Positions 4,407 through 58,516 of a DNA stretch of 64,000 bases are shown here, piece after piece. The DNA lies in assembly GCA_021778845.1 (NCBI GenBank), contig JAJYBU010000014.1, positions 34,801 through 98,800 on the forward strand. The letters run 5' to 3'. The notes below the pieces were generated by a model. It did not search any database and was not told the origin of the DNA. It saw only the letters and a list, made by a program, of their open reading frames with translations. Source of the stretch: Acidobacteriota bacterium (GTDB lineage: Bacteria; Acidobacteriota; Terriglobia; Terriglobales; Acidobacteriaceae). The translations under genes and the position numbers were made by a program. The stretch's first letter is position 1, and the number at the start of each line of letters is the position of its first letter.

Positions 4407-4950
4407 GAGGCGGTTCCTTGCTGCGCTCGGAATGACAAGCGGAAAGGGAAGGGCAACGGCAAGGGCAAAAACAAGCAGCAGCAACGGCAAAAACAAGCAG
4501 CAGCAACGGCGAAAACAAGCAACGGCAACGACAACAGCAGATTCCTCCGCTTCGCTGCGGAATGACAACCAAAAATGCAACGGCAACGGCAACGACAAAA
4601 GCAACAGCAACGACGAAAACAAACAACAGCAACAGCAGATTCCTCCGCTTCGCTGCGGAATGACAACCAAAAAATGCAAGGACAAGGGCAACGGCAACAG
4701 CAACGACAACGACAAAAGCAACAACAACGACAAAAGCAACAGCAACGACAACGACAACGACAAAAGCAACAACAACGACAAAAGCAACAGCAACGGCGAA
4801 AACAAGCAACGGCAACAGCAGATTCCTCCGCTTCGCTGCGGAATGACAACCAAAAAAGCAAGGGCAACGGCAACGGCAAAGGCAAGGGCGACGGCGAAAA
4901 CGTGGATCCTTCGTTGCGCACTGGATGACGGCGAGAAGCCTGGGCGATGG
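4407..4950. repeat. Low-complexity (GCAACGGCAACGACAA)n array with three 38-bp copies of CAGATTCCTCCGCTTCGCTGCGGAATGACAACCAAAAA (4538-4575, 4636-4673, 4819-4856) and one divergent copy near 4410-4437
   Basis: Direct reading; each copy has a short ATTCC...GGAAT inverted repeat. Confidence 0.9.
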
Positions 4951-26977: not shown

Positions 26978-27295
26978 TCACTTCTGCAACGTGCGGATGT
27001 ACGCTACGACATCCTTGATCTCGCCCGCGCTAAGCTTGCCCGCGTAGGCAGGCATTTTGCCTTTACCATTGGTGACCGAAGCAATCAGCGTTGCGTTCGA
27101 TGCGCTGATCAACTCAGGGGATTTGAACGGCATCGCCTTCAAGGATTTGCCGGCCATCGTGGGCTGTCCATCGGCACCGTGGCACATCAGACACTTCGTC
27201 TTGTAGGTAACCGCGCCATCACCCTGCGCAAGTGCTGGTGAAGCGAAAGATACGGCGAGAAGTGAAGCGGCGGCTGCGGTAAGAATGAGTTTCAT
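26978..27295 (-). CDS. Small monoheme cytochrome c
   Basis: Signal peptide 'MKLILTAAAASLLAVSFASPALAQ'; 'KCLMCHGADGQP'; 'MPAYAGKLSAGEIKDVVAYIRTLQK'. Confidence 0.88.
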   Translation of the reverse strand: MKLILTAAAASLLAVSFASPALAQGDGAVTYKTKCLMCHGADGQPTMAGKSLKAMPFKSPELISASNATLIASVTNGKGKMPAYAGKLSAGEIKDVVAYIRTLQK

Positions 27296-27393
27296 GGTTG
27301 CTCCTGTCTTGTGATGATCTCGAACTACTCGCAGGATGCGGGCTGCTGCATCCAACTTTCGTTCCATAGTACCGGATACAACCAGATGGAAAG

Positions 27394-27436
27394 TGTCGCG
27401 CAGCGCCATATTCAGTGAAGATCACGCTGCGCGACA
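27394..27436. other. Inverted repeat TGTCGCGCAGCG/CGCTGCGCGACA between cytochrome genes
   Basis: 12-bp perfect arms, 19-nt loop; intergenic once the downstream start is set at 27295. Confidence 0.75.
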
Positions 27437-27440
27437 TCTA

Positions 27441-27749
27441 CTACTTTTTAAGGGTCTTGATGTATGTGACCACAGAGGTGATGTCGGCATCGGTCAGCTT
27501 GCCAGCATACGCCGGCATCTTAACGGGGCCTGTGCTGATGCCATTCTTGGTGTCCGCAATCAATGTCGCGGCGGATGCATCGGCGCTGAATGCAGGTACT
27601 TTCATCGCCTTGTTTCCGCTGCCGTCTGCCAGGTGACACATCTGGCACTTGCCCTTATAGATGGCGGCTCCCGGTGACTGGGCAAGCACCGGGGTAGCCA
27701 TGGAGACCGCGAGAAGTGAAGCTGCAACAGTTACTAAGCTGAATTTCAC
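27441..27749 (-). CDS. Small monoheme cytochrome c
   Basis: 'KCQMCHLADGSGNKAMKVPAF'; 'MPAYAGKLTDADITSVVTYIKTLKK'. Confidence 0.9.
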   Translation of the reverse strand: MKFSLVTVAASLLAVSMATPVLAQSPGAAIYKGKCQMCHLADGSGNKAMKVPAFSADASAATLIADTKNGISTGPVKMPAYAGKLTDADITSVVTYIKTLKK

Positions 27750-27761
27750 TTTATGCTCCTG

Positions 27762-28079
27762 TTATTTCTTCTGTAGCGTGCGGATGTAAGCGACTACGTC
27801 CTTGATTTGCGCATCGGTAAGCTTCCCCGAGTAGGCGGGCATCTTGCCTTTGCCAGTGGTGGTAATCGCAATCAGATTTGCGGTGGGCTCCTTTACAGCG
27901 GCCGGGGCCAGGAAAGACGGAGCCTTCATCGCCTTTCCAGCGGGAGTGCTGCCCGAACCATCCGCCGCGTGGCACATCAGGCACTTGGCGGTGTAGGTCG
28001 CCGCGCCCGAGTTCTGGGCGACGGCGGGTAGGGTGGTAGCTGCCATGGCAGCTACCAATACTAGTCCTGGATTCTTCAT
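27762..28079 (-). CDS. Small monoheme cytochrome c
   Basis: 'KCLMCHAADGSGSTPAGKAMKAPSF'; 'MPAYSGKLTDAQIKDVVAYIRTLQKK'; signal peptide MKNPGLVLVAAMAATTLPAVAQ. Confidence 0.9.
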   Translation of the reverse strand: MKNPGLVLVAAMAATTLPAVAQNSGAATYTAKCLMCHAADGSGSTPAGKAMKAPSFLAPAAVKEPTANLIAITTTGKGKMPAYSGKLTDAQIKDVVAYIRTLQKK

Positions 28080-57283: not shown

Positions 57284-58516
57284 CTATGGCTCCACGCGCC
57301 CATCCATCGTCTGGCGCACCACCCGGCCCGCCGCATCCAACTCCACCGTCCCCACCAGCGGCTGCCACCCCGCATCGCTCATCCACCCACGCATAAACCG
57401 CGGATCGCGAAACGTGACCACCGTGTCCACCGCGCCATCGCTGCCCGCAGCCAGCCCCCGATCTCGTCCGATCGCCTGCACAATCGGCATCGGCGACCAG
57501 TCCATGTACACGCGCCCGAGTTTACTCGCCTCCGCCGCCAGCACCGCTGCATCCCTCCCCGGCTTCGGATACGTCGTCTCGCCCAGCGTCACCGTACCGC
57601 CCAGCGTATCCATCTCCGCCAACTGATACACCGGTCCAAAGTCCATCGCCGCCGACCAGCGAAACGGGCTCAGCGGATCAGGGCTCGCCAACGCCCGCTG
57701 CGCCTGCAGATAGACCGGCGCCATCTCCCCCGGCGCTGCAATGCTCTGCTCCATCGCCAACTCCACCGCACGCGCATGCTCTACCGTGCGCAATCCCCAC
57801 CACGCCACCACGCCCAGCAGCGCCGCTATCGCCCATCCCCGCGCCGGAAACGGCTGCTTCTTCGCCCCCACCTCCGCGCTGACCAACCCAAACAGCAACG
57901 GCGCAACCAGCGCTCCCACCAGCAGCGCAAACATCACCGGATCGAAGATGAAGACGATCGACGCCGCATACCATCGGTCGTCGAACGGAAAGAACGGCCG
58001 CAGCCCATAGTTATTCGTGTAGTCCAGCAGAAGATGGCTCAGCAGCGCCACCAGCGCCAGCCCATACAGCACGCCCCATCGCACCGGTGCCACCGTCAAC
58101 GCCTTCACCGCTGTTGTCGCTGCTGTTGCTCTTGCCTTTCTGGTTGTCATCCCGTAGGGATCTGCTTCTTCTTTTGCATTTGCCGTTGCTGGCTTTTCGC
58201 CGTCATCCTGGCCCTGAGCACGTCGACGGGAAAGGATCTCAGTATTGGCTGCTGCACTCGCACGCGCCACCCGCCACCGGTGCCACGCATACACCCCGCC
58301 CACAACAAGGGCCGCCTCAAAAGGCAGCCCCAGAAAAGCATGCGTAATTCCGCGATGATGCTGAAACCCCTCGACCGGCCCGCGCAGAGCCCACAGTGTA
58401 TCGACGTCAGGAAACTCCGCAGCCACCACCATCGTCAGCGTGGCATAGGCCGCGCGCCGATTGAGCCCGGTACGCGACAGACACGCGCCTGTAAGCAGAT
58501 GCGTGACAGGCTCCAT
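57284..58516 (-). CDS. YdjM-like metal-dependent membrane hydrolase with repeat-derived insertion
   Basis: 'MEPVTHLLTGACLSRTGLNRRAAYATLTMVVAAEFPDVDTLWALRGPVEGFQHHRGITHAFLGLPFEAALV'; insertion 'QGQDDGEKPATANAKEEADPYGMTTRKARATAATTAVKA'. Confidence 0.82.
   Translation of the reverse strand: MEPVTHLLTGACLSRTGLNRRAAYATLTMVVAAEFPDVDTLWALRGPVEGFQHHRGITHAFLGLPFEAALVVGGVYAWHRWRVARASAAANTEILSRRRAQGQDDGEKPATANAKEEADPYGMTTRKARATAATTAVKALTVAPVRWGVLYGLALVALLSHLLLDYTNNYGLRPFFPFDDRWYAASIVFIFDPVMFALLVGALVAPLLFGLVSAEVGAKKQPFPARGWAIAALLGVVAWWGLRTVEHARAVELAMEQSIAAPGEMAPVYLQAQRALASPDPLSPFRWSAAMDFGPVYQLAEMDTLGGTVTLGETTYPKPGRDAAVLAAEASKLGRVYMDWSPMPIVQAIGRDRGLAAGSDGAVDTVVTFRDPRFMRGWMSDAGWQPLVGTVELDAAGRVVRQTMDGRVEP
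58110..58210 (-). repeat. Copy of the 4.4-4.95 kb repeat family inside a CDS
   Basis: Minus strand: CAGGATGACGGCGAAAAGCCAGCAACGGCAAATGCAAAAGAAGAAGCAGATCCCTACGGGATGACAACCAGAAAGGCAAGAGCAACAGCAGCGACAACAGC. Confidence 0.8.

Follow-up and report, generated by a model that had tools for sequence, protein, structure and literature searches.

A dispersed, REP-like composite palindrome was found in frame within the gene of a YdjM-family inner-membrane protein in a Granulicella-like genome (G000; 3.77 Mb in 79 contigs, with an estimated completeness of about 89%). With good confidence, this copy is regarded as an in-frame insertion into a linker of the protein, probably kept there by tolerance and presumably translated as a passenger. 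The window, i.e., the whole stretch of DNA that was analysed, comprised 64,000 nt, and the 101-nt segment highlighted by the original prediction matched exactly once within it, at positions 58110–58210 of the minus strand, with zero matches expected by chance. Its placement inside a membrane-protein gene without loss of frame was borne out: ydjM formed a single ORF of 410 aa running without interruption across the insert, with no frameshift caused by the segment. Named relatives of the gene came from Granulicella MAGs and from G. mallensis, so that a Granulicella-like acidobacterium is the very probable source of the window.

Orthologues of ydjM were aligned across the genus, a check that had been proposed together with the original prediction. 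In 24 of the 25 congeners, no clear copy of the segment was present, and the segment does not represent an ancient domain common to the orthologues. The closest orthologue (L194 of G020) was 86% identical, and 39 residues of the G000 protein were gapped in the alignment, which corresponds to a net insertion of 117 nt (39 codons). By protein alignment the insertion occupied about 58121–58237, with ambiguous exact ends. Judged from these alignments, the segment is most likely an in-frame insertion in a linker that varies in length and joins two predicted membrane segments.

The linkers were also scored against consensuses of the repeat family. A score of 108 was obtained for G000, compared with a maximum of 36 among shuffles, while G020 reached 18, i.e., chance level, as did most of the other congeners. 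The linker of G005 (L047, following GTGGCGAGTGCGACG) scored above all 200 shuffles, and it contained NN followed by ATGACAGAAAGAAAGACAACAGC, the right-hand part of a related hairpin; G005 ydjM thus appears to carry an insert of its own at the same linker, adjoining an assembly gap. Since this NN scaffold gap falls exactly at the hairpin, Granulicella assemblies may hide or break such inserts, and the genomes compared were largely draft assemblies, some of them broken at family repeats. Linkers of G004, G026, and G013 were weakly above shuffles (matched by 0–1 of 200), which is only suggestive of decayed copies, 26 linkers having been tested.

The coordinates of the individual parts are given in Table 1. 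Although the location given in the original prediction was real, its upstream limit was not: only the right arm of the first hairpin (ATCCT...AGGATGACG) had been recognized. Because the in-gene copy contains both hairpins, the element extends about 36 nt further in the 5′ direction, beginning at AATACTGAGATCC (about 58246).

Table 1. Positions in the window of the ydjM gene, the parts of its inserted element, and the related array.
Feature	Position	Strand	Remarks
YdjM-family inner-membrane protein gene	57284..58516	-	intact 410-aa ORF, PF04307 E=8.6e-26
Entire segment homologous to the family: two hairpins, spacer, and A-rich tail	58110..58246	-	family matches
Hairpin 1, long-loop: ATCCT TTCCCGTCGACGTGCTCAGGGCC AGGAT + GACG tag (reverse complement CGTC)	about 58201..58237	-	
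Spacer between hairpins, GCAA-rich as in dispersed copies	58162..58200	-	
Hairpin 2: ATCCC TAC GGGAT + GACA tag (reverse complement TGTC)	58145..58161	-	core in 26 genomic copies
Right tail ACCAGAAAGGCAAGAGCAACAGCAGCGACAACAGC, GCAA-rich spacer type	58110..58144	-	
Same-family array	4429..4940	+	long-hairpin cores 4541-4570, 4639-4668, 4822-4851; hairpin-1 copy 4905-4930

Folded on its own, hairpin 2 formed a 5-bp stem and a 3-nt loop. For the whole segment, RNA folding was no more stable than that of shuffled sequences (z = 0.04), so that the term palindrome denotes here a short stem and not a strong RNA structure, and RNA structure was rejected as a conserved feature. The AlphaFold model of the YdjM protein had a mean pLDDT of 55.8 and left residues 102–142 without regular secondary structure; given its low confidence, the placement of the insert in an exposed loop is drawn solely from the alignments. 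The peptide that the insert would encode is of low complexity and probably disordered.

In pattern searches, the loop sequence of the ydjM hairpin 1 had no second occurrence in this genome. Long-loop hairpins of this type (CTCAGGGYCAGGATGACG) occurred there in two gene copies only, in ydjM and at G000:C45:83888-83924 (L202), whereas in G013 and G001 they were observed away from clear genes. In the GTCC form of hairpin 1, the first stem position is a G-T wobble.

Membership of the in-gene copy in a dispersed family was evident from comparison with its own genome, the survey covering the stretches around pattern and BLAST matches. BLAST with the segment returned 67 matches, the best of them other than itself being 88% identical over 82 nt (E = 1.9e-23), in agreement with the claim that one repeat family occurs in the gene and elsewhere. 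A pattern with one free stem position (ATNCC..GGNATGACAACC) gave 61 matches in the genome and none for the reversed control. Of these cores, 26 were short ATCCCTRCGGGAT hairpins and most of the others belonged to a longer ATTCCTCCGCTKCGCTGCGGAAT hairpin; many family copies also carried a second hairpin, AATACGGAGATCCTTCGCTTCGCTCTGGATGACGGCG. GCAA was markedly enriched, with 5.6 occurrences per element of about 95 nt compared with 0.46 in window segments, and the spacer around the cores was hexamer-like, as were the GCAA-containing spacers between the cores of the array at 4429–4940. Exact short cores were detected in only 3 of 61 genomes, all of one genus.

At the free third stem position, the 61 cores contained T-A in 34 cases, C-G in 26, and T-G in one, with no mismatch. 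The original prediction had matched the in-gene copy to segments of the array at 4.4–4.9 kb and had described a compensatory change from ATTCC/GGAAT to ATCCC/GGGAT within the gene. The array is indeed of the same family; the closest copies, however, are the 26 dispersed ATCCCTRCGGGATGACAACC cores. Likewise, the paired change is real family-wide, although one or two historical switches may explain the counts, but it is shared by those 26 copies and not private to the gene. The in-gene copy is one of the short subfamily, so the compensatory change represents a difference between subfamilies and not an event of the ydjM copy.

Tested copies of the family lay mostly outside open coding frames. When all six frames were considered, the elements had a mean of 3.8 open frames, somewhat above the 3.2 of window segments. 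The sense frame A.TGA.C contained a stop in every core and was open in none of the 61; the sense frames RAT.GAC and ATG.ACA were open over about 95 nt in 48 and 45 cores, respectively, and antisense frames in 140 of 183 cases. In-gene sense copies are read in the two open sense frames.

Four more genes held in-frame copies: a GH13-like gene, carB, rlmN, and one for an lhr-like helicase. The last three were flagged when the repeat copies were scanned for codon usage, with long window ORFs as the training set, and one of the orthologue searches combined three proteins into a joined query purely as a search device. The descriptions of the repeat as one family, in frame, and like the in-gene palindromes of Rickettsia hold for ydjM and extend to these genes. 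Other long ORFs lying across repeats (L146, L129, L149, L013, L022, and L004) were judged spurious on account of low-complexity translations and weak codon scores, which is a judgement and not a proof.

In the GH13/alpha-amylase-like ORF on contig C45, the insert was found by peptide search and was read in the same frame as in ydjM (ANTGVLPLRQAQGQDDGEKQ; ANT..AQGQDDGEK). It was private to this genome, the aligned congeners having no insert. The carB gene of G000 (L240:816-4232, minus strand) comprised 1139 codons, with about 38 extra residues at the position of three residues (82–84) in E. coli CarB. Six aligned congeners (G001, G005, G021, G022, G003, and G008) had short linkers at this site. 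A related but longer in-frame insert, containing tandem units about 24 nt long, was present at the same site in G019 (L259), and the contig of G013 began there inside a different palindrome type. The inserts of G000 and G019 are compatible with either shared ancestry or independent insertion.

At the rlmN linker, G000 had two hairpins and G001 a short ATTCCC..GGGAAT hairpin; G021 and G007 had a third palindrome type (GGTCTC..GAGATGACA), and G008 and G022 had no palindrome. Three types in four Granulicella genomes suggest that this linker (L255, L256, L257, L258) is a recurrent insertion spot. The lhr-like helicase ORF (L242:440-4999, minus strand; 1520 codons, cut off at the limit of the sequence examined) contained three in-frame antisense palindromes, encoding CHPEQSEGSA, VISTGAQRSG, and VIQSAAKDLS. 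Near one of these sites, a different palindrome was found in G001, G019, and G005, and none in G021. The long-loop hairpin 1 was considered as a hallmark of all in-gene copies and rejected, as it occurred only in ydjM and the GH13-like gene, and the lhr-like and rlmN copies had an ordinary loop.

Taken over the genus, it is rather likely that the Granulicella composite palindrome entered the same linkers (those of carB and rlmN, and probably that of ydjM) repeatedly and independently, with types differing by species. The element itself would be a composite, in which short hairpins with an unpaired CGTC/TGTC end tag are embedded in a GCAA-rich, hexamer-like spacer. Some activity would have spread its copies through the genome, for the most part to places where no gene is recognisable. 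Those landing in a gene would survive only if their length keeps the frame, if the reading frame through the hairpin is open, and if the linker tolerates the extra residues. The survivors would then be translated as passenger peptides of low complexity, probably disordered and presumably neutral, and their spacers could lengthen by multiples of three. The insert sites were linkers of species-variable length, which fits survival by tolerance; such tolerance may also be the cause of the recurrence.

Recurrence at the same linkers in several congeners, together with the carB insert common to G000 and G019, could also be expected if a flexible, charged linker peptide were useful and maintained by selection. 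Under selection, however, the peptides should converge in sequence, and the same site holds different palindromes or none depending on the species; the carB insert of G019 moreover differs in length through internal tandem growth, and domestication of this kind is considered improbable. A function of the repeats as DNA or RNA elements outside genes (terminators, mRNA stabilizers, or protein-binding sites), with the gene copies being incidental, would agree with the prevalence of copies outside open coding frames and with the RNA-level action proposed for published REPs (PMC3733652). It is doubtful as an account of the in-gene copies, given that the ydjM copy showed no excess folding stability, and as a description of that copy it does not compete with in-frame insertion.

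Two further explanations concern the ydjM locus and the assembly. The weak signals in the G004, G026, and G013 linkers, if they were decayed old copies, would allow for a common ancestor with a long, repeat-like linker that was shortened in most species. Such an ancestral segment is very improbable, as G020 and most congeners have short linkers at chance score, and the segment of G000 closely resembles copies dispersed elsewhere in its own genome. Repeat-driven misjoining, placing repeats inside genes, has to be considered in an incomplete assembly of this many contigs, all the more as some contigs of relatives break at repeats (the NN in G005 ydjM and the contig end at carB in G013). Nevertheless, both halves of each gene are in one frame around the insert, the loop sequence of the ydjM hairpin 1 had no second match in the pattern searches of the genome, and the separate assembly of G019 has a carB insert at the same site, which makes an artefact highly unlikely. 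In-frame insertion followed by tolerance remains the preferred reading.

Among known repeats, the closest resemblance was to the superfamily of CGTC/TGTC-tagged palindromes described by Di Nocera et al. 2013, whose stems start with A-T, which has copies inside genes, and which has no dedicated transposase (PMC3733652). This superfamily includes Neisseria dRS3 (CGTC-1) and Rickettsia RPE-4 (CGTC-4) and RPE-6 (CGTC-1) (PMC3733652). The tags of the present family agree, its reverse complements reading CGTC-ATCC...GGAT (hairpin 1) and TGTC-ATCCC-GTA-GGGAT (hairpin 2), and so do the first and second stem positions of the ATTCC/GGAAT and ATCCC/GGGAT cores. Common to both are thus the unpaired end tag, the A-T/T-A stem start, many dispersed or clustered copies, and ORF copies of tens of residues. 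CGTC-REP families 1–4 have stems of 8–9 bp, loops of 4–5 nt, and a mostly CCA unpaired tail (PMC3733652). In contrast, the Granulicella-like hairpin 2 has 5 bp and a 3-nt loop, the loop of hairpin 1 is much longer, the hairpin-2 copies that were listed have a CTG tail (reverse complement of CAG), and GCAA-rich, hexamer-like spacers join the hairpins. With tag and stem start shared, and stem length, loop, tail, and spacers differing, the family is regarded as a variant close to the CGTC superfamily, assigned to none of its listed families.

In behaviour, the inserts resembled the palindromic elements of Rickettsia, for which unusually frequent in-frame insertions were described in a 2024 review (PMC10969869). 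As in Rickettsia, inserts of tens of residues lie in frame in unrelated housekeeping genes, with several palindrome types per genome, and for ydjM, the GH13-like gene, carB, rlmN, and the lhr-like gene there were orthologues without the insert. Differences lie in the phylum, in the hexamer-like spacers, and in the same linker carrying different palindromes across species. Compared by description, Neisseria dRS3 shares the short tagged palindromes in large clusters; dRS3 is not known to form in-frame coding inserts.

In the part of the literature searched, no description of such inserts in Granulicella was found. The word 'Acidobacteria' occurs once in the CGTC-REP paper, in connection with transposases (PMC3733652), and G. 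aggregans was among the genomes scanned in a 2025 REP survey (PMC12306157).

No mobilising enzyme was found for the family among the Y1 transposases examined across congeners. Such transposases were present in 26 of 28 congeners regardless of family abundance, and the best PF01797 (Y1) match in the genome had no family hairpin within the approximately 1.5 kb examined on each side. A Y1/RAYT transposase was therefore rejected as the carrier, its presence not tracking the repeat and its best copy lacking flanking hairpins. GTAG REPs with their RAYTs are likewise short dispersed palindromes, and Y1-type transposases do occur in Granulicella; the tag of the present family, however, is not GTAG, and the best Y1 gene is not flanked by it. 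The check for flanking hairpins covered the best PF01797 match of the genome. For the CGTC-REPs, the enzyme that moves the repeats could not be identified in the 2013 survey (PMC3733652).

Palindromes that code for protein are known best from the reduced genomes of Rickettsia, a lineage of intracellular bacteria. If the present reading is correct, a protein-coding palindrome system exists outside Rickettsia, and the same-linker inserts in several probably free-living soil species, including the core gene carB, would serve as natural replicates. Two questions follow: do the inserts ride along neutrally or supply material from which new protein segments can arise, and which enzyme moves CGTC-tagged repeats? 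With inserts in at least five genes, and with relatives alike at some sites, these genomes seem tolerant of parasitic-looking DNA in working genes.

Other repeats were also noted in the window. The direct repeat D9 (3844 and 5679) lies on either side of the array at 4429–4940 and possibly belongs to two signal-peptidase-like genes. At 26981–28007, the direct repeats D6 and D10 contain spaced GGCACATC motifs on the plus strand, perhaps reflecting a repeat protein or a multi-haem cytochrome encoded on one strand.
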